Of a DNA stretch of 64,000 bases, positions 3,420 to 63,995 are shown in pieces. Source of the stretch: Lepidostoma basale (lineage: Eukaryota > Arthropoda > Insecta > Trichoptera > Lepidostomatidae); contig JAHDVF020000890.1 of assembly GCA_022606425.2 (NCBI GenBank), positions 86,001-150,000 of the forward strand, written 5' to 3'. Position numbers and translations under genes: made by a program. The notes under the pieces are model-generated. The model was not told where the DNA came from and searched no databases. It saw only the letters and a program-made list of their open reading frames with translations. The number at the start of each line of letters is the position of its first letter. Within the stretch, counting starts at the first letter, position 1.

Positions 3420-3460
3420 CAGTCTGTCGATGCCAGTTAGCCTGGTGAAACCGGTCGCTG
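3420..3460 (+). ncRNA. Hammerhead-like ribozyme motif, class D
   Basis: CTGTCGA (3424-3430) is followed by stem II GCCAG/CTGGT (3432-3436 with 3442-3446), GAA (3447-3449), palindromic stem III ACCGGT (3450-3455) and C (3456), giving a GUC cleavage triplet. Stem I pairs CAGT (3420-3423) with GCTG (3457-3460). The core differs from CUGANGA at A6 (U here). All class D copies with a readable core share this change, so activity is doubtful. Confidence 0.55.
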
Positions 3461-3499
3461 TCGAAATAAAGATAAAGGTGGAAATAGTAGACATAAAAG

Positions 3500-4434
3500 C
3501 AATAATAGGAAACATAACTTTTTATTATTATTTTTTTAAATGAACTTCCATTTAAAGATTTCAGTAAAATCATTTCTCAATTTAAATAAATGAATATCAT
3601 CTAGTACTTGCATAGAAGAGTTTTCGCATTTTTAAGTAAACAAGTATTGAAAGCCATTAATTTACCAGAGAAAAAGTTTTTTTAGTCTGTACTCTGTAAA
3701 CATTTTCGGGTGAACCCTGTTGGCAAAAATATGCCTAAACTAAAATGAAGATAAAAATTTATAATAACTTTCATCCTGCTGTGTCTCGCTATCTCTTGAA
3801 ACATTTCGAAGGACCCCCCGCGTAATTTATTATGTCCAGAGTCGGACGGGGTGTAAAGGTGAAACACTAATTCGGGTTCAAACAGTTCAGGGTCGAACTT
3901 TAATACAGCGATAGTAAAAATACCCCTTAAATGTAAAGTTAACTTGATTTTCACGATTAATATTAGTGTTTGGATGGCTTAAAAATTATCAAAATAATTA
4001 CAATAAATTATTAAATAATACGCATTATATATTTATTGAAATTTCTAATGATAATAAATACGTGTAAGGATAAACCTGAATAGATATAGTATCAAAAAAG
4101 TGATACAGGGGACAGAAAGTTCGATTTTAGATACTTTGCTCCTCCAAAGCTATTAGTAAGAGTATTGTTTTCTCTCACTTGAATGATTGTTTCTCTCTTA
4201 TACGTGGTACTGGAGTTTCGGAAAACGTTCATGTATCTTTATCATCGCCCTGTGAGATGATACTATTAAACCACGAGTAAATCCGAGAACCGAAATTAAT
4301 CCAAGCCAATCTTTATTTATTTATTGATCATTTACAAAGTACACGGTTTTCACCCCTATCAACTGCGGTAACCCCTTATTGCAACGATATCAAGTTACGT
4401 ATCCGAATTCCGTATAACCGACAGCCTAAATTTA
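3500..4434. other. Intronic or intergenic sequence, no feature seen
   Basis: A 90-codon minus-strand frame at 3682-3954 has no recognised motif and is treated as chance. The remainder is AT-rich. Confidence 0.4.
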
Positions 4435-4640
4435 AGGAAATCCACACTTCTCTCGGCGCAATCTCCGGCAATACGTAGATTAGTTGAGCTTAGACGTTGC
4501 CCTATCACTATTTTCAAGAATCAAGCCTTCACGGTAGTTAGCCCATCAGCTTGGAACCAACTCCCTTCAAATCTTAGGTGAAAATTATCCGGTAGATTCC
4601 ACGTTTAAGCTGAAAACCAATAATTTTCTTCTTTCATATT
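4435..4640 (+). mobile_element. LINE ORF2 extreme C-terminal fragment
   Basis: A plus-strand frame reads RRLVELRRCPITIFKNQAF then TVVSPSAWNQLPSNLR. The pattern of a core ending FxVxxPSAWNQLP is typical of the last part of CR1/Jockey-type LINE ORF2 proteins. Short and decayed. Confidence 0.5.
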
Positions 4641-4717
4641 CAAATTAAAGTTTATAATTATTATTTTCTATCATATCGCGAATATCAAATGTAGCGATCG
4701 TATAAAATTTAAAACAT

Positions 4718-5182
4718 GTTTCTTCTTCTTTCGGTGCCATGTCAGGTCCCCCCAACGTTGGCGATCACTACAGCAAAGGCATCTCTATCCGCGACATTTG
4801 GAACAGGTTCTAAACTCCTGTCCACTCTTTGTTGTTCTGATTACGGAGCATTCTGCGGTATATCCACATCTCGAGCGCTTCCAACCGGTTCATTACAATC
4901 ACTTTCAGAGTCCAGGTTTTGCAGCCATATAGTAGAACAGACCATATATAACATTTCATCATTATTTGTCGGAGTTTCAAGTTAAGATTATCGTTGCGAA
5001 AGAATGTTCTCATTTTATTAAATGCAGCTCGTGCAACTTTTTTTTCAACAACAATTCTGCATTTTATTTCAATGTCCGGGTCAAGCGCTTTAGTGATAAT
5101 GCTGCCAAGGTGTTTAAATTGTTCGACCATTTTAACATTCGCACCATTCAGTTGCAGAGTGGATGAAGAATACCATAGTTAA
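4718..5182 (-). mobile_element. LINE ORF2 C-terminal fragment, family L2a
   Basis: The minus strand encodes QFKHLGSIITKALDPDIEIK, then IWSVLLYGCKTWTLK and NRLEALEMWIYRRML, the standard post-RT region of an insect LINE. A frameshifted tail reads DRDAFAVVIANVGGT followed by a stop. The same tail occurs at 52780-52850 and near 62040, so the family has at least three copies here. Confidence 0.8.
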
Positions 5183-5975
5183 GTCGTTAAAACATGTTTA
5201 AATGCGTCTTAAAAATGATCACATTATAAAACTGCGGTTTAAAAATCAGCAAATTTATTAGGAAGGCAATACAAACGAGTATACAATGAACACATGTAAA
5301 ACGAGAAATAAAAAACGAAATTTAGCTTCACTTTTAAAAAAATTGTTTTATACATATATTATCGTTCCACGAAGCAATTATGTTTATTATATTAATTATT
5401 ATAAATTATTCTGATTACTTGTGGGTATTATTTTTTTTTTTTTCATTAGAGAAGACATTTTAATTATCTCTAATTCATTTGCTTTTTCATACGAGTTTTA
5501 TCATATTGTGTTCGTCGTTGATATTTTTGTATGTTAATGTAATATTATAAAGTTCGCAAAAAAAAATATGCTACGTCTTGGTTTATAAGAAGTTTTCGTC
5601 GTCAATACTATATGGTTATGTCGAGTGTTGTATGTTTATTGAATATAAAAAATAGTGCGTAATTATTTTTATTCTGCAAATATCATATAAAAGAAATAAT
5701 CCTGCTTGAAATATTATGATTATCAATACAATGGCAGGAAAATAATTATGATTATAAAGTGCGAATAACATAAAATAGTTATATATACCATGATAAGTGT
5801 TTTATTGTAGGGCGAATAAAAGAATTGACCTTACATTAACCTGAAACAAATCAGCAATAAGTTTATGAAAGCTCTTTAAACATTTCCCAAGTCGATAATA
5901 CCAACTTCATGCAAACTCGCAAAGAGGAAGGATATTTGTAGAATTAGCATAATTTAATTTTAATATTTTTTTGCT
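5183..5975. other. Very AT-rich sequence
   Basis: No ORF, repeat unit or RNA signal was recognised. Confidence 0.4.
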
Positions 5976-5978
5976 ATT

Positions 5979-6242
5979 AAAAGGCGGGCCACACTGTTTT
6001 AAACAAGCTCTCCACATCGGTCTCCACCGGCGGTTTAAAACTGTGTAGACACTTGTTTGAAACCAAAATTCGTTTGACCTTCAACAAACTTTGTGGACGG
6101 ACGCGCGTTTAAACACGCATTCCACGTGTGGAGAGCTTGTTTACAACAGTGTGTGGACGCTACACCAACCGTGGGCTCCACAGCTCTCCACCAAGGTCAC
6201 CCCTGTGGAGAGTTTTTATCAAACAGTGTGGCACGGCCTTTA
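5979..6242. mobile_element. Inverted-repeat MITE (~262 bp)
   Basis: The ends are imperfect inverted repeats: left GGCGGGCCACACTGTTT, right AAACAGTGTGGCACGGCC. Further internal pairings involve CTCTCCAC/GTGGAGAG blocks, so the whole unit folds back on itself. Flanks read TTAA on the left and TTTA on the right, suggestive of but not proof of a TTAA-type target. No ORF. Confidence 0.7.
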
Positions 6243-8415: not shown

Positions 8416-8607
8416 AAAATCGATGTAAAGGGTATTATATCTGGCATAGTGATTCTTGTGACATGTGATAGGTAGCTAATCTATCGCCATTTTATTGTCA
8501 CGTGAATTTCACACCAAACCAAAACAGTGTGACAATCACTCTGCCTTCGGGGAATCCAGAACCTTCGGGGTGGCAGTCTAATATTTACCACTCGGCCACG
8601 AAGGTCG
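8416..8607 (-). mobile_element. tRNA-derived SINE, family S1, copy 1
   Basis: On the minus strand a tRNA-like head carries an A box TGGCCGAGTGG (8588-8598) and a degraded B-box region. The body contains ATGGCGATAG followed by AGCTACCTATCACAT, shared with the copy at 44553-44750. The shared body beyond the tRNA-like head marks a SINE rather than a tRNA gene. Confidence 0.8.
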
Positions 8608-8894
8608 TTTTTAATTAACAGTTATAAATCTTTAGATAATCAAGATATCATGAATAGAAAGAGTGAAAAATGAAGAAGTGTATATAAATATGTGAACGGA
8701 TCGTCAGCTGTTGAATAGCTAAAACAATAAGAAAAACTGCATACTTAGGCCAAATTAATTGCGCATAATATGAGGTTATAAACTCTTACTATTTAAATTT
8801 TCTTTATTATTTATTATTTTCATATATAAGCTGCTTTATTGGTGAAATTAAAAAAAGGGCAGTTTTTATCATATTATGTGTCATATTATGTATG

Positions 8895-9048
8895 TGTTTG
8901 ATGTGTTTTTGGGTAACACCGTGTGATAACTCCTTCTCGACCGACGATGAATGGAATCCATTACCCTGAAGATGGAGACTGCAACGATCTCCGAAACGTC
9001 GGTCGAGAAGGAGCTATCACACGGTGTTACCCAAAAACACATCAAACA
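8895..9048. repeat. Fold-back element with a hammerhead at its apex
   Basis: Two 52-bp arms (8895-8946 and 8997-9048) are inverted copies with one mismatch. The loop between them holds the class F hammerhead core, and the right arm begins inside its stem III/cleavage site. The arrangement recurs in degraded form at 21560-21690 and 45770-45870. Confidence 0.85.
8963..9003 (+). ncRNA. Hammerhead ribozyme, class F, intact core
   Basis: ACC (8963-8965) pairs with GGT (9001-9003) as stem I. CTGAAGA (8966-8972) gives the C3-A9 core. Stem II is GGAGA/TCTCC (8974-8978 with 8988-8992). GAA (8993-8995) precedes palindromic stem III ACGT (8996-8999), and C17 is 9000, so the cleavage triplet is GUC. All invariant type I hammerhead positions are present. 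Stem III is only two base pairs without a loop in the monomer, so cleavage may need a dimer, as proposed for other minimal hammerheads. Confidence 0.75.
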
Positions 9049-9349
9049 TATTGTTGCCAACCGTGAAAATCTACGCATATTATGTACATGTATATCACAA
9101 CAAACATTTATTTTTAACAAATATAAACAAAAGATCTAATTTCAAATTTCGAACAGGATGCAAATTTGGAATCTGCTGTTGGGTGTTTATAGTTTTCAAA
9201 ATATCTGTTAGTCAGATTTTTTCGTAAAATAATTTAAATTGTGTTTATTTTACAACATTTCCTAAAGAAATATAAAATATTGAAAGCTGAATGAATGTGT
9301 CATTAAGAAAAAAGTCACATGACTACGATGATTTGTGTAAATGGAACAA

Positions 9350-11779: not shown

Positions 11780-11814
11780 GACGTTTCCGAGATCGTCGCA
11801 GCCTCTATCTTCAG
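11780..11814 (-). ncRNA. Hammerhead ribozyme, class F
   Basis: The minus strand gives CTGAAGA, a stem II with GAG/CTC and one or two mismatches, then GAAACGTC ending at 11780. The core and GUC triplet are intact; stem II is weaker than in the copy at 8966. Confidence 0.6.
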
Positions 11815-11889: not shown

Positions 11890-13560
11890 CAGGATACATG
11901 GAAGTTACCTAAGATTCCAAAAAAAAAACATGTTCCTACCAAAAGTAAAAATCTATGCACAATATAGAAAATATACTAAAATATATTTTGACAAAAAAAT
12001 GTTTGTAACTATTGTTTAACCTTGTAACCCCATATAGGTTATAAATTATCAATCAGGATATTTAATTAGTATACAATACCTATTTTATTACTGGTACTTA
12101 CAAAAAAGATTAACATATTTATAAGAGTTTTTTAGTTTCCCATTTATAAGAAAAACATTGGTTGCTTTTACGTTTCCCGCACACAAAGTGTAAAGCTTGA
12201 GAGATTGCCGTTATTTCTGTGATATTTTAATGGAACCATATACATTAAGTGTTTATTAGAATATTAAACACTATCATTATTTTGAAGGTGTAAAATAACT
12301 CGTTATTTTGGAAAAATGTTTACTACCTAACTAACATTCTTTGATTTTTTTGATTACTCATCAAGTAAATGGCTGGTCTACCTCTCAACTCTGTTAACCA
12401 ATTTTAGGTAGGAATTCAATAACGAATATAGGTCGAAATAAATAAAAATCCTATTATGAAACACTTCCCATTATATACGAATTATTTAAAAATCAACTTG
12501 TAAGTGTCTAATATATTTGATAATACCGTAGTCAGGCTAAACATATCATTCCCATAAATTATAGTTAAACTTCTAGAAAACAGACATTTTCATTCATATT
12601 AATTATACAGAATCATGTTAAAAAAATAACAATGGAGCGATCATTTTAACTAAGCTTCCGGAAAAAAAGACGTGATGATTAACTAGATACATAATATTTT
12701 TTGATATATCAATAATGATTGTACCCTGTTTCGCCAGGGTCTTAAATATCAAAATTTAAATTCAGTAAATTTAAAAACATTATTTTAATATTATTTTCGT
12801 ATAGAATCATGTTAATCACCCCTGATATTTATGTATATAAGTGAGTCAGTTTATAATAGTGTCACCAGACTATTGATGCCAGCGAATATAAAGTCAAAAA
12901 TGGTAGTAGCTAAAAAAGACATCGTTTTATTTCATTATTATTTAAAATTAACTTCCATTAAGAGATTTCAGTAAAAATCATTAGATTATTTTTGTTAGTA
13001 AAAAAATGCGAGGGTATATACTGAACATGTAAAAATAGTTTTGTAGACATCTTCGAATCTGTCTATATATAGTATTAAAGTTTTTAGGTTACCAGTTTGA
13101 GGGGCCGATGGAAGACCAAGTTTTAATTGAAAAAGCTGAAAGTTACTTTGCCAGTGGAAGGTAGGGCAATTAAATTAAGCGGTATCCGAATCGCCTAAAT
13201 TATACGTAACAACGCGAGTTCTGGTCAGCTGCGGAAGCCAGTTAATGATGGCTTAGTTTCGGGCGAAGTTCGGGCATTAAGATGGAGGAAAAACCCCAGA
13301 AGGTCTTGGGTAATTTGACAAAACCAACAAAAGAGCTTAACGCGAAAAGTCTGTAAGGATATGATTTAAAACAATGGCAAGTAGTTTGAGAAATGGTTTG
13401 ATTGGCCCGTATAAAATCATCATTACATTGGCCAAACATAAACATCACTTATATTTAAAATTCTCACATAGTTTCAAATTCTATTCACTTGCTTAAAAAA
13501 ATCATCATTTATTCAAAGTTAATTAAACAAGAGAATATTTAATTGCTTACATTTGTTAAT
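11890..13560. other. AT-rich region with scattered ribozyme-element scraps
   Basis: A class A tail (TTCTAGAAAACAGAC block) lies near 12570-12615 and class D debris near 12850-12980. No gene was seen. Frames at 13242-13448 and elsewhere show no motif. Confidence 0.45.
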
Positions 13561-13564
13561 AATT

Positions 13565-13680
13565 AATAAGAATAAAACCATCTGTTTTCTAGGAGTTTTA
13601 TTATATTTAAGATGAAATGACATGTTTCGTCTTTCTAAGGCATAATCAAATGGCATTTAAGAATGCCTTAGAAGTGCAAT
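13565..13680 (-). repeat. Class A ribozyme-like element
   Basis: The minus strand reads TTGATTATGCCTTAGA then GACGAAACATGTCATTTC, with the conserved flank that includes AAAACTCCTAGAAAACAGA. The core is the class A variant (see findings). A partial inverted arm follows at 13660-13670. Confidence 0.55.
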
Positions 13681-13742: not shown

Positions 13743-13774
13743 AACATGGTTCGGACTAACCAGCCCTTCATCAG
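13743..13774 (-). ncRNA. Hammerhead ribozyme, class B, tandem unit 1
   Basis: Minus strand: CTGATGA, a loop-closing GG/CC stem II, then GAACCATGTT. A15.1 is replaced by C, so stem III is imperfect. First of three direct repeats. Confidence 0.5.
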
Positions 13775-14006: not shown

Positions 14007-14038
14007 AACATGTTTCGGACAACCCGGTCCTTCCTCAG
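14007..14038 (-). ncRNA. Hammerhead ribozyme, class B, tandem unit 2
   Basis: Minus strand: CTGAGGA, stem II GGAC/GTCC with loop CGGGTT, GAA, palindromic stem III ACATGT, then T at the cleavage position (GUU triplet, weaker than GUC). It is a near-identical inverted partner of the motif at 15010-15041. Confidence 0.65.
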
Positions 14039-15009: not shown

Positions 15010-15041
15010 CTGAGGAAGGACCGGGTTGTCCGAAACATGTT
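15010..15041 (+). ncRNA. Hammerhead ribozyme, class B
   Basis: CTGAGGA (15010-15016), stem II GGAC/GTCC (15018-15021, 15028-15031) with loop CGGGTT, GAA (15032-15034), palindromic stem III ACATGT (15035-15040), cleavage base T (15041). The following 60 bp are an inverted copy of 13945-14006. Confidence 0.65.
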
Positions 15042-21581: not shown

Positions 21582-21617
21582 CAATGTTTCGGAAAGCGTT
21601 GCAGGCTCCATCTTCAG
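21582..21617 (-). ncRNA. Hammerhead motif, class F, shg intron
   Basis: Minus strand: CTGAAGA, a stem II with GGA/TCC, then GAAACATTGG. The core is intact but the GUC triplet is replaced. An inverted plus-strand partner at 21645-21680 has CTGAATA (G8 lost) with a good GAAACGTC. Both sit in the 0.7-kb intron between EC5 and EC6 exons. Confidence 0.45.
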
Positions 21618-21781
21618 GGTAGTTAGCATAGCTACCATACCTACCCTGAATATGAAGTCTGCAACGATCTCCGAAACGTCAGACAAGATTCAAAAGCATA
21701 TTTTTTTGTGTTTTGGACAAATAAATAGCGATTTTTTACATTTGCTTTTACATACTGATATGAATAATAAAGGTCACTTAC

Positions 21782-23319: not shown

Positions 23320-23489
23320 CTGTAAATAAAATAAAAAGTTTAAAACTATTCCCAAAAACACTTTTTTTAAATAAGTTAAATAATTAAAAAGTCCATTGTT
23401 TTGGCCGAAACACTATGATACCTTAACATTTTAAACTGTCAACTTAAAGGACTTTGTTTTTTGTATCACAAATGTATTTTATTTTACGC

Positions 23490-23525
23490 GACAGCTGTTT
23501 CATCGACCTATGTTGACATCATCAG
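23490..23525 (-). ncRNA. Hammerhead ribozyme, class C, minus-strand member of a palindromic pair
   Basis: Minus strand: CTGATGA core, a six-base-pair stem II with loop ATAG, GAA, palindromic stem III ACAGCTGT and C at 23490. All core positions are present. It lies on the transcribed strand of the 0.7-kb shg intron between the EC3 exons. Confidence 0.8.
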
Positions 23526-23569
23526 GTGTTACAATAATATATCAAAATTTTCATATATTATTGTAACAC

Positions 23570-23605
23570 CTGATGACGTCAACATAGGTTGATGAAACAG
23601 CTGTC
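23570..23605 (+). ncRNA. Hammerhead ribozyme, class C, plus-strand member of the pair
   Basis: CTGATGA (23570-23576), stem II GTCAAC/GTTGAT (23578-23583 with 23588-23593, loop ATAG), GAA (23594-23596), self-complementary stem III ACAGCTGT (23597-23604), C17 at 23605, GUC triplet. It is an inverted copy of 23490-23525; arms of about 90 bp meet at a 12-bp centre near 23542. Confidence 0.82.
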
Positions 23606-23729
23606 GCGTAAAATAAAGTACAATTGTGATAAAATAAAACAAAGTTCTTTAATCTAACAGTTAAAGTTAAATAATGTTTTTAAATAAGAAAAATAGGTAA
23701 TGTTTTTTAATAAGTACTTTCATTTTTAT

Positions 23730-26398: not shown

Positions 26399-28085
26399 CT
26401 GTTTAAAAAAAGAACAATCATTAGAACACACGTTACCTATTTGAATATTATAATTGTGTAGAGTAAATATTTGAGAGAATATTTTCTCTGTTCTCTTTTC
26501 CGCGAAAATATTATGAACATAACCTCAATGTTACAATAATTTGTGTGTTGTTTATTCATCCTTACGTTATTTTACGAGTTACTGATTGTTTGTATGTAAA
26601 TATGTAACAATAAATATTGATAAAACACGGGGCACTATATTGTAAATGTATCAAATAATTAAGAAATACTCGTAAATAAAAACGTATATATGAAGGTGAA
26701 GCTTCAGATTGTGAGTACTCGATTAAATAATTAAAAGTGACAATTTAACCTCAAAAGATAGGAATATCCTCGTTAACAACTCAAAAAGTACCCCCAAGGT
26801 TGGCAAACATTCCCCTAACATTACATAATCCAATTGATATTCACGGGGATAATTTAAAATAAATTGGAACAACCGAGTGAGGATGTTTTGGTAATAGTTA
26901 CGTCATAAAATTAATCGCTTTTTAAAATAAGAATGTCTCCTTAAAAATCATATTATTAATAATAATAAAATATAAAACATTTTTTAAAGTTCTTAAGGCT
27001 AGATTTTCTTTTGTTTTTTTTATCCCTGACTTTTTTAATATACCCGTATGTTAGCCAGAATAATCACACAACTCATTTAATACAATCTGTCCTTGTTATT
27101 CTCTTACTTCGATGATCATAATGACAAAGGTATGGAGGATATCAAAACCAGTAAACATATTAAATGTTCAAACAAAAATGGAAATATTATATTACAAAAC
27201 ATGTTTCGGAGAGCAGACGCCCTTCTTCAGTGCAGAATTTTTAAATATTAAATAAATTATTCGAATATGAATGTACAACCTGTATTGATGGCAAATATTG
27301 AAGAAATAATAAAGTTTTTAAATAATACAACATAGCGCTGAATCAATTTTATCAAAAAAATGCACAATCAATTTACTACATTAATATATTATACATCTGT
27401 TGAGTCCAGCAACAATATTTAACTTACTACTGTTTTAGAATCGAACAACGGACTCCAATAAAAACAAGATTTATGTACCACCTTACCATAAACGAGTCAT
27501 AATTTATGAAGCCATTTCATATTTCATACATTATATTTTAAGGGGTTGTTTTCCATGAATACATGAGTCTGTGTATTGATTTTGTGGGATTTAACCCTTT
27601 TTATGCCACTTTAAAATACTCAATTAATATGGGTAGTAAAATTGGACGAAAATCATAAGATAGAACTTTATTTAAGCTCATTTCATTGCAGTGAAATCAA
27701 TGGACGCGCATTACTATATTTAGAAAAGAAGTATAATTAAGATTTCATTGAAAACCTTTTTTTATTTATCAATTTTTATAATTGTATGTTTTTTAATACG
27801 CTTAGTAATTATATTTTACTGTTTTTCATCGGACGGAATAACAATTAATTGTTTATTGATCTCGTGTTTTTTTTTTAATTTTGTGGGAATGATATGCTTT
27901 GGTTTTCAAAGGTATTATCAAATGTATATAACATTAACATTTGATAATGCTTAAGTAAGGCAAAACATGTCATTCACACAAAATGTAATGAATTTCCAGT
28001 AAACAGACGTTTTCATTCACAATATTGAATATATTACGCTATTTAAAACGCGATACTCAATTTATTTATTATTATTATTTAAATG
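26399..28085. other. shg intron, AT-rich, with class A debris
   Basis: At 27930-28030 a class A ribozyme-like stretch (TTGATAATGC, then AAAACATGTCATTC, then AAACAGACGTTTTC) is seen on the plus strand. Otherwise nothing beyond the class B motif listed separately. Confidence 0.45.
27198..27230 (-). ncRNA. Hammerhead ribozyme, class B, shg intron
   Basis: Minus strand: CTGAAGA, a weak stem II (GGG...TCC), GAA, stem III ACATGT, then T. The core is intact. It is on the transcribed strand of the 4.4-kb intron between EC2 exons. Confidence 0.5.
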
Positions 28086-29973: not shown

Positions 29974-30007
29974 CTGAAGAAGGGAAGTCTGTGTTCTGAA
30001 ACATGTT
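29974..30007 (+). ncRNA. Hammerhead ribozyme, class B
   Basis: CTGAAGA (29974-29980), a four-pair stem II (29981-29984 with 29994-29997, two G-U pairs), GAA (29998-30000), stem III ACATGT (30001-30006), T at 30007. Confidence 0.5.
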
Positions 30008-30419: not shown

Positions 30420-30500
30420 AATCCGTGTAGTTCATCTTTCTGGACCGACGCTTAGGCTATCGTTTCCGTCTCCATCTTCAGGGTGGTTATCATGTCAAAT
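30420..30500 (-). repeat. Class F ribozyme remnant
   Basis: Minus strand: CTGAAGATGGAGACGGAAAC then AAGCGTCGGTCC. The core's first half and the GUC are present, while the stem II loop and GAA are disrupted. Confidence 0.45.
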
Positions 30501-35255: not shown

Positions 35256-35266
35256 ATTTTGACAGC

Positions 35267-35295
35267 GACCGGTTTCGCCAGACTAGCTGGCACAG
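35267..35295 (-). ncRNA. Hammerhead-like motif, class D
   Basis: Minus strand: CTGT, stem II GCCAG/CTGGC with loop CTAGT, GAA, ACCGGT, C. The core is shortened (CTGTG before the stem). A second class D half (AACCGGTCGCTGTT) follows on the plus strand at 35299-35312. Confidence 0.45.
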
Positions 35296-35689
35296 GCTTA
35301 ACCGGTCGCTGTTAAAAATAATGACAATAAGTGTAAGTAGTTATTTAAAAAAAACATCGTTAACGAGTAACTTGGGTCAAAAGAGGTGCCTCCATGTGAG
35401 GTGTAGTTATCTATAATGCCCAACGCCCCTGGAAACAACATCAAAGGCATGAGAAAGAAGACAAATAAGATTTATCTTCTATATTCACTTTCACTTTGTG
35501 TTGTGTATTCATATTTGAATAAACATAATTACACTTGGTATTACAACACTTTATTTCACCAAACACAGACATGTTTCAGTTATAATACATATTCGCACCT
35601 TCGGTAAGACAAGGGCATAATTGTTATAAATTCTCAAAATGAGTTAAGTATGCCAATGTATTTTAAAAACATCCTATTTATTGTTTCTT

Positions 35690-35875
35690 GAACAATGATG
35701 TAAAACTCCATTATAAATAATTAATATGAATTAAAACGTCAGTTTTCTAGAGGTTTTATTATATTTTATAATGCCTTAGAAGGGCGAAACATGTCATTCC
35801 CATAAAATATAATAAAACTTCTAGAAAACTGACGTTTTCATTCGTATTAATTATTAAAAACATCCCTTTATCTGG
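35690..35875 (+). repeat. Class A ribozyme-like element
   Basis: An inverted flank CGTCAGTTTTCTAGAGGTTTTATTA (split by the motif) precedes ATAATGCCTTAGAAGGGC, GAAACATGTC (C17 at 35795) and AAAACTTCTAGAAAACTGACG. Stem II GCC/GGGC, stem III ACATGT and GUC are present; the core upstream of stem II is incomplete (TATAATG). Confidence 0.6.
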
Positions 35876-36536: not shown

Positions 36537-36569
36537 GACCGTTTTCGCCAGGGTCGCTGGCATCGACAG
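36537..36569 (-). ncRNA. Hammerhead-like motif, class D
   Basis: Minus strand: CTGTCGA, stem II GCCAG/CTGGC with loop CGACC, GAA, AACGGT, C. It has the same A6-to-U change as the copy at 3424. Confidence 0.5.
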
Positions 36570-36939
36570 ACTGGTGACACTATTGCAAACTGAGTCTTTT
36601 ATAAACATATAAATGATTCTTAAAAATAATCTTAAAATAATTATGTAAAATTTACTGAATTTAAATATTGGCAGTAAAGTTATTTAAGATGATTCTTATT
36701 CAATACAATGGATTTTTGAATTTTATTATCGCTGACATATGTATGTAACGTTTGAAAATTATGTATACACTCATATATATATATAACGTTTGAAAAAAAC
36801 ATAATAATGTTTTTAATATTACTGAATTTAAATATAATGTAATCTTGGTCCATTAGGTTGGCAACGCCTTATATTTTTTCCATCCATTAGTACCTTAACG
36901 TTTTAAGAAAAAATAAATTACTTCAAAATTAATTAATTA

Positions 36940-37127
36940 GAATTAAAACGTCTGTTTTCTATATATTTTTGTGAATGACATGTTTCACCTATCGAAGCCA
37001 TTATCAAATGTATATGTAATTTATACATGTGATAATGCCTTAGACGGGCGAAACATTTCATTCACATAAAATATAATAAAACTTCTATAAAACAGACATT
37101 TTCATTCGTATTAATTATTTAAGATGA
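36940..37127 (+). repeat. Class A inverted pair, interrupted at 37127 by a LINE
   Basis: The left half (36950-37010, minus sense) and right half (37020-37110, plus sense) are inverted copies around ATGTATATGTAATTTATACA. The right half reads GTGATAATGCCTTAGACGGG then CGAAACATTTCATTC. The downstream flank of this element resumes at 39471, after the Jockey insertion. Confidence 0.75.
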
Positions 37128-39458
37128 CTTGGACTTAGATCTTCTGGCTTACAGAGGTTCAGCTCATGTGGCTATTCCTCTTACGTCTGATGGGAACATT
37201 GTTGGAAGGTGATTTGGTGGGTTGTTAGTTTATTCGGGGGCATGATTTGTGTGGCCCGGAGTGTTCCTCTGAAGGAGAATCGATTTTGGGCGCTTGTGGC
37301 GGCTGGAAGTGTTTGGGTCGTAATTAGAGAGGTCTTTTATTGTGGGGTTGGGATGTGAAGGGAGTCCTTTGTAAAAACGTTCGGCAAGTTTCAGAATGAA
37401 TTCATCTATCATCGGGATTCCCGATTCTAGGTGCAGTTGTGTAATCCTGGTCCATGAAGGCGCACCAAGCGATAAACGGATAGCCTTATTTTGCAGGGTT
37501 TGGAGTGTTTGTATGTGACTCGAAGCTGCATAGCCCCAGATTGGGGCTGCATAAGTGAAGATCGGCCTTATAACCGTTTTGTATATCAGGAGTTTATTGT
37601 CGATGCTTAGTTTACTGTTTCTAGCTAACATTGGGTAGAGGGCTGAGATTGCTTTTGACGCGGCTTTGACTTTATTTGTAATGTGTGGCCTCCATGTCAG
37701 CTTAGAATCCAAGGTAACCCCAAGGTATTTGATTGTTTTGGTCCAAGGAACGTCTTGGCCGAACATTTTTATGTTGGGAATGTTTGGAGGAATGTGTCTT
37801 TTACTGAAAAGGGTCGCTGCGCTTTTACTCGGATTGATGGTAATGCACCAGTTTCTGCACCACACCTCTAGCACATCGGCCTGTTTTTGCACCCTGCGGG
37901 TCGCGAGAAGCGGCCTTTTAGCACTGGAGATGATGCCCGTATCGTCAGCGAATTGGGCAATGTGGGTGTTCTGATCTCGGGGAAGAGGGATATCACTGCA
38001 GTAGATGTTGAACAGAGTAGGAGCCATTACTGAACCTTGGGGAACTCCTGCTCTGATAGGGCGTACAAGGGATTTGGCCTTGTTGATTTTGACGCTGAAA
38101 AGGCGATCGGACAGAAAGCTGGCTATGAGTTGAATCATAGGCAGTGGGATGTTTGCTTTTCCCATTTTGTATAACAAGCCGGTGTGCCAGACGCGGTCGA
38201 ATGCTTTACTGACATCTAGGGAAAAGAAAGTGGTGAATTTGCGCGTGTTAAAGTTTGTGGCAATAAGTTCAACTACACGAAGTAGCTGATGTTGTGTGGA
38301 GTGTTGGGCACGGAAACCGTGTTGAAAATCTGGAATGATACTCTGTTCGTGAAGTGTTGTTTTGAGTCTTGATTGTATGAGTTTTTCCAACAATTTACCA
38401 GTGCAAGGAAGAAGACTAATTGGTCTATGATTTGAAGGAGCTGTTGGGTCCTTGCCTGGCTTGGGAAGAAGGATAACGTCTGCGATTTTGTAGGGTTTCG
38501 GGAAGTATCGGAGTCTAAGGGATGCGTTGAAGATCGCTGTCAGGGCACAGATGCCTTTGAGAGGGAGAGATTTGAGAATTTTGTTAGATATTGAGTCAGG
38601 ACCTGGTGATTTGCGGGTATTAAGATATTTTATTTGTTGTTTCACCTCTCTAGGTGAGGTGAATGGGATCGGTGGGGATGAAGGAGTTTTGGCTAAGAGT
38701 TGTGAAACGTGAGATTCGATCGAGGCCACGAATAATGGATTGTCATGTTCGTTATTTGTCGTGAATTGATCTTCTAGGCTCGCTGCAAATGTTTCTGCCC
38801 TGTCGGCGTCGGAGTACACTAATCCATTTGGACCTTGTAACGGTGTGATTCTTGAGTGGGGTTTGCGAAGATTTTTGGATAATTTCCAGAAGGCTGTCTT
38901 GTCGTCATCGTTTAATGACTCTAGATAATCCATCCAGCGGTCATTGCGTAAGTCGGTGATGGCTTTTTTGACGTCAATGTTTAGTTTGTTGAGAAGTGTT
39001 TTATCCTGAGGTTGTCGATATTTTTGCCATCTTTTTCTAATGGTATTTTTGTGGCGTATTATCTGTTGGATATCGGCAGGTAGATTTGGTCTGTATATGT
39101 CGTTGTCTACAACTGTGGTTGCATTTTTAGAGCAGTCTGTAGGATAAATGTCATTTCATTCGTGACCTGATCGAGAGATTCTGGGTCTGCAATTTTTGTT
39201 GGGATTTTGATCATTTCGTGGATGATTTCGGGAAGAGAATACCAATTAATTTTATTTCTGGTGGGGAAATGGGGGTCACGGTGGAATGGTTCATCAGAGA
39301 TGTAGATAAGTATAGGGATATGATCAGAGGATAGTTCGTCTACTACCTGTAGGGTGAGAGGGAGGGTAAAGTTTTTAGTCATGACAATATCGATGACGTC
39401 CGGGGAATGTTTTGGATTTTTATTGAAAATTGTCGGAGTATCGGGAGCTGTGATGAAA
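37128..39458 (-). mobile_element. Jockey-type LINE, 5'-truncated, with 12-bp target-site duplication
   Basis: TATTTAAGATGA occurs at 37116-37127 and at 39459-39470, directly flanking 2331 bp. The element runs on the minus strand, from the C-terminal part of an APE endonuclease (VIDIVMTKNFTLPL, ELSSDHIPILI) into a complete RT. The flanks join into a class A ribozyme-like element when it is removed. The truncation and duplication are as expected of target-primed reverse transcription. No A tail is evident at the 3' end. Confidence 0.93.
37230..39130 (-). CDS. Jockey-type ORF2: RT and C-terminal domain, nearly intact
   Basis: A minus frame is open from about 39130 to a stop at 37230; the first Met is at 38933 (567 codons). 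It contains RKSPGPDSISNKILKSLP, HRPISLLPCTGKLLEKLIQS, motif A FFSLDVSKAFDRVWHTGLLY, RAGVPQGSVMAPTLFNIYCS, the catalytic AQFADDTGIISS and the thumb block IKYLGVTLDSKLTWRPHI. The end is LIYKTVIRPIFTYAAPIWGY and SHIQTLQTLQNKAIRLSLGA. One frameshift near 39115-39130 separates it from the endonuclease remnant, whose frame ends at 39107. All RT catalytic Asp residues are present. Confidence 0.95.
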
Positions 39459-39666
39459 TATTTAAGATGAAGTTTTACTTAATTGTTCAAGAAACACATG
39501 TCACGAACTTTATAGAAATTAAACGAGCAAATTTCGTAATTTCATATAAAGAACTTAATTTGTGTTGTGACATTTTTAAAAATAATAACACTTTTCTTCG
39601 TGTTATTTACCACTTTATTTTATCAAACCAACCGGTTTCGTTGCCAGTATGTTTTAACCCTGAACC

Positions 39667-39702
39667 CTGACGAACCTCCGGCGGGAGCGAAATCAGCTGG
39701 TT
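39667..39702 (+). ncRNA. Hammerhead ribozyme, class G
   Basis: CTGACGA (39667-39673), stem II CTCC/GGAG (39676-39679 with 39684-39687, loop GGCG), GAA (39689-39691), a five-pair stem III ATCAG/CTGGT (39692-39701), cleavage base T (39702). An inverted, degraded partner lies at 39625-39660 (ACCGGTTTCGTTGCCAGTAT). Confidence 0.6.
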
Positions 39703-39904
39703 TGATAAAACAAAAGTAAAGTGGTAAAGAAACATGTAGAAAAGCGATTGTAAATTATTTAGAATAAATTTTGATAAAAAAAATCAAATAAAGCAGTTAA
39801 TAATTTTTAGTATCATAGAGCTACGACGAAACAATGGAATACGAAACAAAATATTTTTTGAAACGCAAATTTAAAAATTTCAAGGAATGAAAAAAGTGAT
39901 CACT

Positions 39905-44750: not shown

Positions 44751-44847
44751 TTTCCTTTTCTAAATTTAATTTTTTTAACGTGCTTCGAAGGTTTTTCCAT
44801 CTACATCATCAGGAGAACGATATATACTTATTTATATTGTTCTCCCC

Positions 44848-44879
44848 ATGATGAAGGCGTAAAACCTTAGAAACATGTC
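44848..44879 (+). ncRNA. Hammerhead-like motif, class H
   Basis: ATGATGA (C3 replaced by A), stem II AGG/CCT with loop CGTAAAA, a TTA bulge, GAA, ACATGT, C at 44879. An inverted partner upstream (44795-44815) reads CTGATGATG on the minus strand with an intact core but a poor second half. Confidence 0.4.
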
Positions 44880-48090: not shown

Positions 48091-48298
48091 CTTAGATTCA
48101 CCGCTAGAGGAAAACGAAATCAAATAAAGCCTATAGATCTTATTTTTAAAAATCAAATGGTTTCAAAAAATATATACGAGTATATTGTTATTTGAAATTT
48201 CATGGAAGAAGTTCATTGTAAATAATGAAAAAAAAAAAATTATGTAAAAAATCTTTTTAAAATATATCTTGTTAAAATCACTGATGTTTGCGTCTTTA

Positions 48299-48375
48299 AC
48301 CGGTTTTGGCAGCACGTTTTCATCTTCTGGTTGAAGATTTCACCAGAATATGGCAGCGAGCTGCCGAAACCGGTC
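48299..48375. ncRNA. Hammerhead-like class E pair (minus 48299-48330, plus 48344-48375)
   Basis: Plus half: CAGAATA, stem II GGCAGC/GCTGCC, GAA, ACCGGT, C at 48375. Minus half: CAGAAGA, TGAAAACGTGCTGCC, AAAACCGGTT. Stem II, stem III and the triplet are good in the plus half, but class E has A at position 4 where U is expected. Confidence 0.45.
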
Positions 48376-48769
48376 GAAGACAAAAACATCAGTGGATTTT
48401 ATAATGTAAGATTTTTTACATTTTTATTTTATTTTCATTATTTCAAATTGTTTCGTTGAAGTTATGATTTATTTATATTTTGGTATTTGGTGATGACATG
48501 ATAAAATAAATCACAGGACAAGACAGGAAATTAAATTTGAACTGAAAAGATTTTTTGTACGAACGTAAGAGATCTTTGATAAACTAAAGGCATGTACTGT
48601 GAAAATTCACAAAATTTGTATTCATAATATTCAAAGTGAATAAATCATTAAAAATGAACAACTGAATTTAAGAAGAATCATAACATGAACATAATATTCC
48701 AGTGAAACGAATAATCATTGTATTACAAATATTAAATAAATATACGAGTATGTCATATATGTCGGAATA

Positions 48770-53779: not shown

Positions 53780-53815
53780 GACAGTTGTTTCGCTAACCGA
53801 TGTTAGCATCGTCAG
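53780..53815 (-). ncRNA. Hammerhead ribozyme, class C, single copy
   Basis: Minus strand: CTGACGA, perfect six-pair stem II GCTAAC/GTTAGC with loop ATCG, GAA, stem III ACA/TGT with loop AC, C at 53780, GUC triplet. It differs from the 23.5-kb pair at several paired positions while keeping the pairing in stem II, which is strong evidence for RNA function in the family. Confidence 0.82.
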
Positions 53816-54922: not shown

Positions 54923-54954
54923 GACCGGTTTCAGCAGCTTGCTGCCATCTTCTG
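54923..54954 (-). ncRNA. Hammerhead-like motif, class E
   Basis: Minus strand: CAGAAGA, stem II GGCAGC/GCTGCT with loop AA, GAA, ACCGGT, C at 54923. As in the other class E copies, position 4 is A. Confidence 0.5.
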
Positions 54955-58919: not shown

Positions 58920-61125
58920 CATTTAAAAAAAAGTTAATATTAATAATTGTACGCAACAAAATACGAAGAAACATCAAACTATTCAACGATAGCAAAAAAA
59001 AAATGTGCAACTTTAAATTCTAGTCACGTAAAAAAACTTTAAAGGTTGTCAAACATAAAAAAACAATTTTATTAAAAAAATTTCATTATCGTTATCAATG
59101 GAATTAAATCGAATAGGAACAAATTAATTCAAAGCAATGACGAATTAATAAAATTAAATACATGTATCTTAATTGAAATAGTAAAAGGGATGAATCTACC
59201 CTCATAAATGGTTAACGGGGGTAAAATATAAAATTACCAAAAAGTTGAGTGATCCCTGAAAAAGTGGAAACAGGAAAGTCGCCTAATATCAGGAAATTGG
59301 ATAAGCTGAATGCGGAGTGCTCTATGTTCGGCTGTGGGTATTGGATGTCGGAGAAGAGATGTGGTTCATACATGATTAAACCATAAAACATAACGGGATT
59401 TTCTGTACGTTTCCTGATTTTCGGTGATTTATTGAATGGGATTTGAACAGCAGAATAAATCATTTCGTTTTCGAATTAATACATTTTATTAGGAAATGAT
59501 AATAAAATCGATGGAATAAAAACCAAGTATGTATTGTAGTATTTCTTAAATAAAGAAATAAAACTCCATATTAAATAATCAATACGAATGAAAATGTCTG
59601 TTTTCTAGAAGTTTAATTATATTTTATGTGAGTGACAAGTTTCGCCTGTCTAAAATTTGATAATGCCGACTACGAAAAGACATTAAAGGACTAGAAAACT
59701 AACATTAGACTTGAAAACTAAGGGGAAAATAAGTTGTGGCATAATAAATTTAATTAAAAAATAATGTATCCAATGTGATATGAAACTCCATATTTAATAA
59801 TATATTTAGCATTGATTAAAAATTCCGTTTTCAAGATGTTTAAGATTTTTCCCCTTGCTACGCAGTACCAAAGGAAACATGTCATTCCTATTAAATATAA
59901 AATAAAATTTCTAGGTTAATATGGAGTTGTACATCATTGTTCAAGAAACATTTAATATATTTTTAAAAGGCTAGAATTAAATTAAACTTCAATAGCGTAA
60001 CACAGAATTTTATATGACCCGACCGCATTAGGAAGAACAAAAGCTATCCGAGAACAAAAAGCATTAATTTCTGAAAAATAAAATGTACAAATATATTCAG
60101 TGTTATATAATGAAAATACGTTAATTCTATTTATAAAAAAAGTAGGTTAAAAAATATTATGGTGAATAAAATAAATATTTTTAGAACGCATGTACATAAA
60201 TATTTTGGGGACGTTAGACCTGTCAAAATAAAGAGGTTTAGCGTGAAAATGTTCTTTTACCCCTAGCTTAAGAATTCGCCCTAAACGTAACGTTTTTACA
60301 TATTTAGACATTTAGGAAACCCTTTTTTTTTACTAAAACCAAGAATTTTAATGACACGAAACAACACATCATAATTACGAAAGCAGCATTAAATGGAGTC
60401 GTTATGAAACGTAAACCAATTAGACAAATGGTGGGGTTGACAAAAAGAGCTTTTTTTAATTCAAATATGTACGCATGTGTATATGAAATAAATAGTTTTG
60501 GGGACAAAAAAAACATTTACATAAAACAAAAATTCGTTAAAGGGGAGAAAGTATACGACGTTATTAGATTGGATTTGATGTAAAAATATGGGTTATGTTC
60601 CGGGAAGCACATGTTTGACTGCCTATTTTCATCAATAAAAACAATCCTTTCTTCATCAGATCGAAGTATTATATTCACCTCCTATCTTCTTCAGTCGAGT
60701 AATCCTCATTCATGCCTAAGTTGTATCTAAACCAGCCATGATGCTGATTAAATTCTTCACATCTGATGAAAGTATAACAATGCCTGGAGAAAGGAGAAAT
60801 AACCATTTCATTCTAGACCCCATAGCCATTGTGGTATTCTCGCGAGGGATATGTGAATTTCGTTATTCGATAGAAACCGGCGGGAACTGAAATCGGATTG
60901 AATATTTTGGATCAGTGAACAATAATTCAAATACGTGCCTGAAAACGAATTAATGGAATCTCTGGTATAGAAAAGTTTAAGAATTATGTTCGATTATCAC
61001 ATTTGAAAAACTATTCAATTAAAAAAATTAATATCGATGGAAAAGTCAGATTCAATACGATCAAATTTACTATATGATCAAATTGATCATAATACTCCCA
61101 TACAATACAAATAAACTTCTAAGAA
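58920..61125. other. AT-rich and unique sequence; class A debris near 59590-59665 and 59870-59925
   Basis: The class A pieces share TTTTCTAGAAGTTT and GGAAACATGTCATTCC. 60180-61020 has no recognisable feature; a 70-codon minus frame at 60304-60516 carries no motif. Confidence 0.4.
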
Positions 61126-61309: not shown

Positions 61310-61590
61310 CCAAAACACCGTTTCCCCGAAGGGGTATGTAGAAATAATGGACCACCACACTTCACTTTCTTGAAATATTTCTCTCACTTTCTAAACATTC
61401 ATTCATCGTGTCATACCCGCACGTCAATTTTACGTGGCCGATATTCAATGTTTAATTTATCTGATCATCCACGTTTTCTCGGTCTTCTTTCATTTCTAGT
61501 TCCGTTTACATCTTTAACACATATTTTCTTAACCATTATCTCTTCGTTTATTCTTTCCATGTGTTTAAACCATATTTGAAATCCCTTTTT
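61310..61590 (-). mobile_element. RTE 3' end, decayed
   Basis: Minus strand: WFKHMERINE, GRP.K.W, then ACGYDT..NV and the YPFGET-like end near 61318. Confidence 0.65.
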
Positions 61591-61594
61591 ATTA

Positions 61595-61855
61595 TTAATA
61601 TGAATGAAAACGTCTGTCTTCTAGGAGTTTGATTGTATTTTAAATGGAATGACATGTTTCGCCCTACCAAGGAATTATCAAATGTCTCAGAAGGGCTAAA
61701 TATAAATAATTACGAGTATTTGGAATGAATTAGAAGGGCGAAACATGTCATTAAAATTTAAAATATTATATGCTAAATATAAAACTCCTTATATAATAAT
61801 ATCTAAATATAAAACTCCTAGAACACAGACGTTTTTCTTTATATTAATTATTCAA
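61595..61855. repeat. Class A ribozyme-like inverted and tandem copies
   Basis: The left half (minus) has GACATGTTTCGCCC. Two plus-sense halves follow: CAGAAGGGCTAAATATAAA and GAAGGGCGAAACATGTCATT. Outer flanks are AACGTCTGTCTTCTAGGAG and CTCCTAGAACACAGACGTT. Confidence 0.6.
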
Positions 61856-62075
61856 TATGGAAAATACCACCTCCTTCGACTGATTTTAATGGGTAAAGTG
61901 GAGAGACGTCGGGGTGTTGATAAAGCAGTTGTCCTGGCTGCGGAACATTAAAGCATGGACAAGAATGACAAGAATTCAGAACCTGTTCTAAGTGGCGCAA
62001 GACAGAGATGCCATTACTGTAGTGATCGCCAACGTTGGTGGAACCTGACACGGCACCGAAAGAAGAAGATGGAAT
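61856..62075 (+). mobile_element. LINE ORF2 C-terminal remnant, family L2a
   Basis: KYHLLRLILMGKVERRRGVD, then after a shift DRDAITVVIANVGGT and the TGACACGGCACCGAAAGAAG tail. Same family as 4718-5182. Confidence 0.7.
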
Positions 62076-62635
62076 TTTACATCGTTGTTCCAGAAAGAAT
62101 AAATAATCATTTTTCTCATTATTATATACTCAAAACACTTCTTACGTAAACTGAAGGTGTTAAAGAAAATTATAGAATTCTAGATATTATAAGCCTTTTG
62201 AATATGCCTTATAATAATGGATATAAGAAAAATTCATTTTATTTTTCAGACCTTTCCTAGTGAGACATATGATACATAGTTTATTCATATTTCGAATTAT
62301 TGTATTATATTAATTCATGGTGAAAGAGTATGATCACATCTGTGAAAATGTGTCTCGGCGAAAAGACGTAGAAATATTCAATTTCCCCAAAGTGTGGATC
62401 GGTAGTAAGCGGTCAGTTTTCCTTATTGGATACGTGATTCTGGTCCACAGAGATCGTTCTCTCCGGCAGAGGCTGGGCGAGAGAATAGTGGATCCAGGAT
62501 CTAATATACACTTGGCACGAAATTGGAAATCCTAAAACTCCACGGATGCGATTCAAGTTATAATTGATTATAACTGTTTTGGCACACAAGTGTAGAATAC
62601 CTTTCTCAAAAGTTTTTTTTAGAATAAAACATTAT
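62076..62635. other. Unique block
   Basis: 62310-62540 has balanced base composition and a 72-codon plus frame without a recognisable motif. Nothing else. Confidence 0.3.
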
Positions 62636-62639
62636 AATA

Positions 62640-62720
62640 ATGTAGGAAAGCTTATCCAAAAAAGCTAAGATGGCAGTACAAAATGATGTTCTTGTGCCAA
62701 TCCTTATATATCTATGAGAT
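62640..62720 (+). mobile_element. RTE scrap
   Basis: LSKKAKMAVQNDVLVPILI is the 5' part of the RTE C-terminal segment. Confidence 0.55.
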
Positions 62721-62944
62721 TACTTCTAGAAAACAAACATTCATGTCAAAAATAAATAATGTTTAAAACAAAAAGCTAATATTCAATATAATCAAATGAT
62801 TTTACTGAAATCTCTTGATAATATAATAAAAAAATAACGTTTTTTAAGAACCACTTCCACTTTTGATTTGTTTGATCTGTCGATGTCAAAGAGTTGTCGA
62901 AATAAAGGCAAAAGTGGAAATATTTCCTTAAAAAAAAAAGTTTT

Positions 62945-63155
62945 ATTTAATTAACTAACTAACCATCACGCCGTCTTACCAAAGGGATAGGCAGAAAGAA
63001 AGGACTGTCACACTTTAACCGACGCGGCACTCCATCCTTCTCATTTCGCCCCCACGCGTGGCCACGGGAGACGCGGTGTGATGAGTTGCGAAACTTATCG
63101 CCAACAATAAGCGTATCTCCCGCGCACACTTCGATCGTCCAATGTCCATAAAATA
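62945..63155 (-). mobile_element. Non-autonomous element family N1, copy 3
   Basis: Minus-strand equivalent of 47890-48090 with a small insertion (GGCCACGCGTGGGGGCGAAA) in the middle palindromic region. It has a GTTAGTTAGTTAATTAA-type tail at its 3' side (62946-62963). Class D scraps (GTCGAAATAAAGGC) lie just to the left at 62895. Confidence 0.82.
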
Positions 63156-63159
63156 AAAA

Positions 63160-63815
63160 TAATTATAATTTAAGATTTTTAAAGTTTTCGCCATGTTTTG
63201 CAATTGTCCCAAATTTAACACATTTATTGTATTTTTCATGTGAAATATATTTATGCTGCTGGATTTTATAATACATGGTTAAAAATAACGTTAAACAGTA
63301 TGTAATTTAGATATTTCAATTGTGTTTTTTGTTCGCCTTTTGTGTATTTCATTTTCAAATATTTTATCTGATTTCCTCAATACAAACAACCCACGATAGT
63401 TGGTACTTAAATCAGAATCTATGTTTCTATCTAAAGCTAACCTGAAAAGAAATGTTTTTTTTTCTTCTACAACAATGCTTCGTGGTCATAAAAAAGTATT
63501 GGAGTTGCCCTGACCAAACCTACCGTTTTAGGATTAATTCATGAAACCTATTGTGTATTTCTTCCCTTATTCAGAAAAGGGTTGCGTTTAGCATTCTCTA
63601 TTTGGAATGTATTCATCTATTAACCTAGCGGTTAAAGGATGGAGCTTTTTATTTTCCGAGGAAGTTACGTTAATATTTAAGAAACTTTCGCTTGGAAAAG
63701 TGAAGCGAAACGATACTCCACTATCACCCTAAATTTTCTAAGTAATAAGAATTTCTGAATAAATAATCTTAATATTATTTATTGATTCTTAAATAATTAT
63801 GTAAAACTCCATATA
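63160..63815. other. Unique sequence
   Basis: 63380-63740 is not repeated in the window. No ORF with a motif. Confidence 0.3.
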
Positions 63816-63819
63816 AAAC

Positions 63820-63995
63820 AAATAATGCGAATGGAAACGTCTGTTTTCTAGAACTTTTATTATAATTTTTGGCAATGATATGTTTCTCCTTTCTAAGGGA
63901 TAATAAAATGTTAATTGATAATACCTTAGAAATGCGAAACGTGGCATTCCTTCAATTTAATTTAATAAAATTTTAGAAAACAGACGTTCGGATTA
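63820..63995. repeat. Class A ribozyme-like inverted pair at right edge
   Basis: Left half (minus) GATATGTTTCTCC. Right half reads TTGATAATACCTTAGAAATG then CGAAACGTGGCATTCC. Flanks AACGTCTGTTTTCTAGAAC and TTAGAAAACAGACGTT. Confidence 0.6.

Follow-up and report, generated by a model that had tools for sequence, protein, structure and literature searches.

What are the hammerhead-like motifs that crowd a 64,000-nucleotide (nt) stretch of the genome of the trichopteran Lepidostoma basale (contig JAHDVF020000890.1 of assembly GCA_022606425.2, positions 86,001 to 150,000; the whole stretch is termed the window here), and why do they occur side by side in such different guises? Our analysis indicates that they are very probably the minimal type I hammerheads of the pseudo-long terminal repeats (pLTRs) of Penelope-like elements (PLEs), i.e., relics of many old insertions from several subfamilies together with short nonautonomous copies. 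The anatomy of PLE insertions, with head-to-head pairs, a tail of 30 to 40 nt on one arm, and short target duplications, was observed for classes B and F and for recent copies of class D. For classes A, C, E, G, and H, a PLE origin is suggested by the motif and its pairing.

Hammerhead-type motifs in the window

The hammerhead-type motifs in the window are real. With both strands analyzed and shuffled windows as controls, the core CTGANGA was present 34 times, compared with 18.45 per dinucleotide shuffle (20 shuffles). The pattern CTGANGA.{8,26}GAAAC was found 12 times versus 0.43 per shuffle (maximum of 3 in 200 shuffles), and its CGAAAC form 7 times versus 0.1 (maximum of 2). A perfect Watson-Crick palindrome of at least 6 nt directly followed GAAAC in 27 of 197 cases, compared with 3.04 of 161.7 per shuffle (maximum of 7 in 50 shuffles). 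Eleven sites reached a score of at least 20 with a descriptor composed of the core (at least 4/6), stem II after 0 or 1 extra base, a self-complementary stem III, and H17, versus 0.275 per shuffle (40 shuffles); earlier, stricter descriptors gave just 1 and 4 matches. In all 11 top sites, a single additional base, which the original prediction had not listed, separates A9 from stem II. A chance origin of the motifs is ruled out by these controls, and the original prediction, made from the letters of the window, of many hammerhead-type motifs on both strands is borne out. The self-complementary blocks that it named (ACATGT, ACAGCTGT, ACCGGT, ACGT, and ATCAGCTGGT) were all found.

The motifs were told apart by eye into eight groups (A to H), in agreement with the at least seven classes proposed before. 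The core CUGANGA...GAA, plus the extra base after A9, is kept in A, B, C, and E, and departures were found in D (A6U), F (C3U and G8A), G (U4A), and H (mixed). Class F, the largest group in the window, has the core TTGATAA and lies outside the CTGANGA consensus; its sequence, TTGATAAT-GCCTTAGAAGGGC-GAA-ACATGT-C, combines C3U and G8A, and a profile of its arm gave 26 window matches at an E-value of ≤0.05, 10 of which were training arms. The claim that the classes lack common flanks holds only in part: an arm following the predicted cleavage site (GAA.ATAAA...GTGGAA, by eye) is common to D, G, and H, and therefore not every class lacks flank similarity. Many sites form head-to-head inverted pairs with the motifs facing outward, which the original prediction had not noted; such pairs occur in every group from B to H, and A1 and A2 form an inverted pair with other repeats in between. 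The motifs A6 and A2, 124 nt apart, stand in direct orientation, as would be expected of dimeric hammerheads in tandem.

Pairing in stem II is kept by compensatory change. Nine window sequences from groups A, D, and G were picked by eye as well preserved, with H1R and the groups B and E, which were misaligned by MAFFT, left out. Stems I and II of these rows were paired in 88.9% of 72 cells versus 25.0 to 50.0% when slid, two-sided changes occurred in 7 of 8 pairs, and the covariation score was 0.837 versus at most 0.222 in the control. Stem I was paired in 80.6% of cells in the same rows and comprised 0 to 3 bp in the descriptor sites of B, C, E, and F; stem III is present solely as a palindrome between two RNAs. 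A covariance model was built from the nine rows and run on the window with filters off; after the training rows it ranked D3, A6, B3 (E-value of 0.028), C1 (0.03), and B1 (0.056), followed by weaker matches. The held-out groups B and C thus rank high, with weak E-values. Twelve of the first 15 nontraining matches were sites listed here, the other three lying at 57171 and 61822 on the minus strand and at 14097 on the plus strand.

Abundance in the genome

The genome (768,829,600 bases in 1572 contigs) was searched for exact pattern matches, with the reversed pattern as the control. The general pattern CTGANGAN{9,26}CGAAAC matched 53,418 times (26,852 on the plus and 26,566 on the minus strand), compared with 465 matches (234 and 231) of its control, the class B pattern 613 times on the plus and 585 times on the minus strand, and the class F pattern 4398 times in exact copies (2169 and 2229); the controls of both class patterns gave no match on either strand. 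Searches of viral contigs with three patterns gave no match. On average, one general match occurs per 14.4 kb, and the window, with 7 in 64 kb, has about 1.6 times this mean. The window is therefore typical, its motif density being ordinary for L. basale, and the supposition that the diversity of motifs is unusual for one neighborhood is not sustained.

The outer four pairs of stem II were scored in the first 100 matches listed, all on a single contig (contig C1, distinct from the pair C1 of the window). With one extra base after A9, standard pairs filled 89.0% of 400 cells, compared with 36.0% for no extra base, 48.5% for two, and 22.8% for three, and with 53.0% when the 3' arms were dealt anew (maximum of 59.8% in 500 deals). 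All four pairs were standard in 73 of the 100 matches. Pair 2 was CG in 38, GC in 38, and TA in 10 of them, all four Watson-Crick types were found at pairs 3 and 4, and the extra base was A in 49, T in 49, and C and G in 1 each. Genome-wide changes in stem II therefore preserve pairing, as the original prediction had demanded of a true hammerhead.

Insertion anatomy of classes B and F

The first 100 matches of class B represent 85 distinct places, 76 of which were fetched for study. The distribution of arm ends has maxima near +50 and +80 relative to the predicted cut; ends at +76 or beyond were classified as long and those from +44 to +56 as short. Neighboring units within 400 nt were head-to-head ("-+") in 60 cases and "--" in 2, with no "+-" and no "++". 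The 60 pairs comprised 42 with a long and a short arm, none with two long arms, 1 with two short arms, 12 with a long arm and another end, and 5 with another end and a short arm. In class F (29 distinct loci from 30 listed, two of which are at one place; long, at least +85; short, +48 to +66), the 46 neighboring units within 300 nt were "-+" in 29, "+-" in 11, "--" in 5, and "++" in 1. Here, 17 of the 29 pairs were long and short, none long and long, 2 short and short, 6 long and other, and 4 other and short. Pooled over both classes, 59 pairs joined a long and a short arm, 3 joined two short arms, 27 had another end, and none had two long arms, so that the use of the tail looks exclusive in B and F. 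Class F insertions (L081 to L110) often adjoin other F insertions, as reflected in the 11 "+-" neighbors, as if F had inserted into F.

Among the 50 class B pairs in which each arm reached at least +40, exact duplications of at least 8 bp within 8 nt of the ends were present in 31, versus 0.46 expected with the flanks of other loci, and the supported duplications range from 8 to 13 bp. The centers of 39 well-kept B pairs all differ (by eye), often with filler repeating pieces of leader or core, and in 13 of the 39 an inner truncation affects a single arm. Since the centers differ per locus, the head-to-head pairs were probably made afresh with every insertion. Both arms belonged to the same subfamily in all 48 assignable pairs of the 60 (20 B1, 24 B2, and 4 Bp), and rare variants were common to both arms in 5 cases versus 1.24 expected at 15 loci of subfamily B1 and in 8 versus 1.36 at 17 loci of subfamily B2. 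These observations point either to one kind of donor RNA for both arms or to subfamilies that were active at different times. The idea of heterodimers, with arms from different RNAs, is ruled out by the uniform subfamily of the 48 pairs. In three class B insertions (L008, L026, and L060), an identical deletion of 20 nt, lying between two ATCACAC repeats, is seen in the long arm but not in the short one (by eye), which could reflect slippage of reverse transcription or a second RNA.

Link to Penelope-like elements

A genome-wide profile search for the GIY-YIG endonuclease domain (PF01541) gave 62 matches among 150 scored of 541 candidates, and the five neighbor pairs less than 3 kb apart among the listed matches were all "-+" (by eye). 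A 757-amino-acid (aa) open reading frame (ORF) at C742 combines RVT_1 (1.4e-13) with GIY-YIG (6.6e-5) and is flanked on both sides by class D motifs, the left one inverted and the right one direct. At the loci L124 and L125, two endonuclease-coding parts lie head to head, and D motifs follow the endonuclease at a distance of about 0.5 kb. The arms are 99.5% (2283 nt) and 98.8% (980 nt) identical, respectively, a tail of roughly 37 to 39 nt is present on one of the two arms at each locus (by eye), and the pairs are flanked by the duplications AAGTTAAG and CATAAAGCGAT (by eye). Given that D motifs flank both the reverse transcriptase/GIY-YIG ORF and the recent copies, the core CUGUCGA of class D is that of recent PLE copies; D1 of the window belongs to the same class as the pLTRs of this element. 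Among the 12 GIY-YIG loci L111 to L122, a D motif was located downstream on the GIY-YIG strand in 4 (L116, L117, L118, and L122), and 8 had none. The original prediction noted no Penelope reverse transcriptase nearby; Pfam scans of 28 of the 113 window ORFs of at least 75 aa revealed no GIY-YIG, and the reverse transcriptase was found elsewhere in the genome, with class D motifs on both sides.

Proposed mechanism

A unit would consist of a short leader, CUGANGA plus one base, stem II, GAA, the palindromic stem III, and, following the cleavage-site base, an arm either about 50 or 80 to 100 nt long. The best supported scheme for its insertion is two-ended target-primed reverse transcription with one start of reverse transcription per strand and joining in the middle, the priming itself being conjectural. 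The PLE endonuclease would cut the two strands of the target with an offset of a few bases. Reverse transcription primed by one of the resulting ends would begin at an upstream start, giving the short arm, and that primed by the other at a downstream start 30 to 40 nt away, giving the long arm with the tail. Joining of the two cDNAs in the middle would then leave a head-to-head pair between short target duplications. Because the stem III palindrome pairs only between two RNAs, its role in dimerization is plausible.

Self-cleavage of the hammerheads is putative. The core positions C3 and G8 are described as important in PMC11167929 and A6 in PMC3088659, and D (CUGUCGA) and F (UUGAUAA) are altered at just such positions; yet D occurs in recent copies and F in 4398 exact copies, and cleavage may therefore be dispensable for spread. 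Among 25 truncated arms in the 60 class B pairs, only 1 starts at the predicted cut, so that the templates look mostly uncleaved; 9 start at -9 to -6, where reverse transcription may have stopped at the 3' foot of stem II. Cleavage-defined 5' ends were considered and rejected, as they fit the window arm C2 (20154), which starts precisely at the predicted cut, but just that 1 of the 25 truncated arms. A bolder version, to which we attach a low probability, holds that PLE insertion is obligately asymmetric, with the upstream start used on one strand, the downstream start on the other, and never the downstream start twice, that like RNAs are paired via stem III, and that the hammerhead is mainly a signal for dimerization and packaging, with D and F still spreading despite altered cores. 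The genome offers the means to ask whether PLE insertions always combine two starts of reverse transcription on opposite strands and, with its numerous F copies and recently inserted D copies, whether catalysis is needed.

Several observations, among them the altered cores and the scarcity of arms starting at the cut, weigh against the assignment to PLE hammerheads. Direct linkage to PLEs is established for class D alone. At L114, a different hammerhead-like motif follows a GIY-YIG fragment, which may be a coincidence and by itself proves little because such motifs are dense in the genome. The limits for long and short arms were chosen after inspection of the arm ends, 17 of the 46 neighboring units of class F are not head-to-head, and 4 of the 12 core sites (53815, 30481, 21617, and 14161) have no perfect palindrome. 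The predicted gain from dimerization was in the lowest 10 of 100 mononucleotide shuffles for just 3 of 14 units (A4, C3, and G2R), and the single-strand energies of three units were no better than those of shuffles. The Rfam covariance models, the check that the original prediction had proposed, detected no hammerhead in the window at the gathering cutoff and none at an E-value of 10; the model made here ranked held-out groups high, again weakly (E-values of 0.03 to 0.06). The Rfam hammerhead models hence miss a natural class of very high abundance.

Alternative explanations

Head-to-head pairs could also arise by self-priming, if one cDNA or antisense transcript folded back and copied itself, as has been proposed for the Penelope of Adineta vaga in PMC3846280. 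The nearly perfectly symmetric center of L124 (by eye) with its 99.5% identical arms, a perfect palindrome of 58 nt located innermost in one arm of L125, the single subfamily in all 48 assignable pairs, and the rare variants common to both arms (13 versus 2.6 expected) all agree with this explanation. Copying of one cDNA does not, however, predict the regular difference between the outer ends (42 long and short, 0 long and long), and the inner truncation of only one arm in a third of the well-kept B pairs and the filler at their centers likewise speak against it. We regard self-priming as rather unlikely overall and as more plausible for symmetric copies, L124 among them, than for others. The metazoan retrozymes, which are mobile via circular RNAs and consist of short tandem repeats containing type I hammerheads, resemble the motifs described here insofar as type I hammerheads sit in short noncoding repeats. 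The spacing of A6 and A2 on one strand would suit them, as would 3 "++" and 1 "--" among the 10 neighbors less than 400 nt apart in the 100-match list (the others being 5 "-+" and 1 "+-"). Direct tandem copies are nevertheless not the rule in class B, whose neighbors are head-to-head in 60 of 62 cases and never "++" and which has the PLE tail, although single direct pairs exist elsewhere; a retrozyme origin is therefore very unlikely.

The original prediction saw separate repeat families that had converged on one fold in an unusual neighborhood. The stem II and stem III sequences do differ from class to class, but the genome-wide density is of the same order as that in the window, D, G, and H have arms in common, and B, F, and D show identical Penelope-like insertion anatomy, which makes convergence of unrelated families highly improbable. 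Least probable of all are foldback DNA transposons (miniature inverted-repeat transposable elements), the inverted repeats of which would resemble hammerheads by descent. Short palindromic units between short duplications would suit them, but the centers differ at each of the 39 loci (by eye), a tail of fixed position distinguishes one end from the other, the duplications vary in length, and GIY-YIG-coding copies have the same ends, which contradicts this origin.

Comparison with known systems

Minimal type I hammerheads dispersed by the thousands in metazoa, some of them in PLE pLTRs, are described in the review PMC7761336, which calls the role of the PLE forms a mystery; the tens of thousands of matches in one genome bear on this role. 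As portrayed in papers citing the original descriptions (Cervera and De la Pena 2014; Lunse et al. 2017, via PMC7761336 and PMC6155905), the minimal PLE hammerheads resemble those of L. basale in the shared core, the lack of helix III, the thousands of dispersed copies, and a proposed dimeric action. They are set apart, by the same portrayals, by the nearly constant extra base after A9, the palindromic stem III, and the noncanonical cores of D and F found here.

A close parallel is Poseidon of Anolis carolinensis (PAc). According to PMC11167929, its hammerhead lies at the junction of pLTR and ORF, reverse transcription starts at two adjacent RNA sites with a tail of 30 to 40 bp between them, and both target strands are cut and extended; its hammerhead cleaved in vitro only with protein present, and cleavage was not required for insertion in vitro. 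In class B, the distance from the ATG inside the motif to the long end is about 109 nt (counted on L013), compared with starts 111 to 118 bp into the ORF reported for PAc. In the class B unit of L013 this ATG opens a frame to the end of the arm, and in recent class D copies a stop follows after 11 codons (both by eye). Unlike PAc, L. basale has mostly short noncoding copies. In the Penelope of A. vaga, as described in PMC3846280, the pLTRs are inverted and head to head, one of them bears a 31-bp tail, and the target duplications span 8 to 10 bp, an arrangement ascribed to self-priming; the word hammerhead does not occur in the main text of that paper, and unlike there, tail use was counted here over dozens of insertions. 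The non-LTR retrozymes of metazoa (PMC7229834) share type I hammerheads in short repeats but are described as direct tandem repeats, not as head-to-head pairs with target duplications and a tail.

Since PLE hammerheads and inverted pLTRs have been published, elements of this kind are already known. Neither a tally of tail use for individual insertions nor a hammerhead family with U3/A8 or U6 cores appeared in the portions of the published work covered, which did not include the key papers on PLE hammerheads; this is weak evidence that the tail-use count and the altered-core families are new.

Features of the window

Within the window (Table 1), B1 and F35 are complete insertions, each combining a short arm with a long one between duplications. 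A scripted duplication finder, working with rough ends, gave just a shifted duplication for B1 and nothing of note for F35, F37, G2, and E. Stem II differs between the class C sites C3 (GCTAAC/GTTAGC) and C1 (GTCAAC/GTTGAT). The Rfam microRNA families MIR6274 and MIR9560 match the C1 palindrome (23497-23598) below their cutoffs, and some annotations of microRNA hairpins could be head-to-head hammerhead pairs.

Table 1. Hammerhead-type sites and insertions by class, in window positions (a dot stands where no single strand is assigned)
Feature	Position	Strand	Remarks
A1, motif	15010..15041	+	Block ACATGT; 7-bp stem I
A2, motif	14007..14038	-	Inverted partner of A1
A3, motif	13743..13774	-	
A4, motif	27198..27230	-	
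A5, motif	29974..30007	+	
A6, motif	14161-14131	-	Upstream of A2, same strand
B1, insertion, head-to-head pair	8893..9077	+	Short left arm (to ~8895), long right arm
B1, hammerhead core	8966-9000	+	Block ACGT; predicted cut before 9001
B1, target duplication TATTATGTA	8884-8892 and 9078-9086		Read by eye
B2, motif	30447..30481	-	Decayed
B3, pair	21582..21681	.	Hammerhead on - (21617 to 21583), degenerate one on + (21646-21680)
B4, motif	11780..11814	-	
C1, head-to-head pair	23431..23665	.	Single large palindrome; self-alignment 89.8%
C1, hammerheads	23570-23605 and 23525-23490	+ and -	Block ACAGCTGT
C3, motif	53780..53815	-	Block ACAACTGT, imperfect palindrome
D1, motif	3424..3456	+	Core CTGTCGA, block ACCGGT
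D2, motif	36537..36569	-	
D3, motif	35261..35303	-	Degenerate core; within inverted pair 35215-35361
E, pair	39555..39745	.	Outer limits approximate; left arm ACCGGTTGGT
E, right motif	39667-39702	+	Self-complementary ATCAGCTGGT
F35, insertion	35675..35855	.	Tail on long left arm; right arm short
F35, target duplication AAAAACATCC	35665-35674 and 35856-35865		Read by eye
F, head-to-head pair	36930..37130	.	
F, head-to-head pair	27865..28026	.	
F, head-to-head pair	63776..63994	.	By the window end
F, pair	61587..61863	.	
F, single arm	13556..13655	-	
F, single arm	12507..12622	+	
F, single arm	59532..59663	-	
G1, motif	54923..54954	-	Core CAGAAGA
G2, head-to-head pair	48220..48443	.	Right motif on + (48344-48375)
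H, head-to-head pair	44778..44879	.	Motifs on + (44845-44879) and - (44812-44778)

The Pfam scans of window ORFs also revealed RVT_1 in two ORFs, cadherin, and a weak helix-turn-helix match. The two long RVT_1 ORFs (9457-10698 on the plus and 37230-39155 on the minus strand) are presumably, by resemblance, of the non-LTR type, and more than 10 fragments in the window resemble the first of them. Cadherin-domain exons are located at 20785-24310 and 30709-30954, both on the minus strand; several repeats lie in between, probably in introns. A tRNA-like match at 44556-44627 on the plus strand (Rfam RF00005, 33.9 bits), which was not found by ARAGORN, may be a tRNA-derived repeat, and positions 8450-8608 resemble this region on the opposite strand. 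Finally, an exact 42-bp tandem duplication with TATGACATGTCATA occupies 54149-54232.

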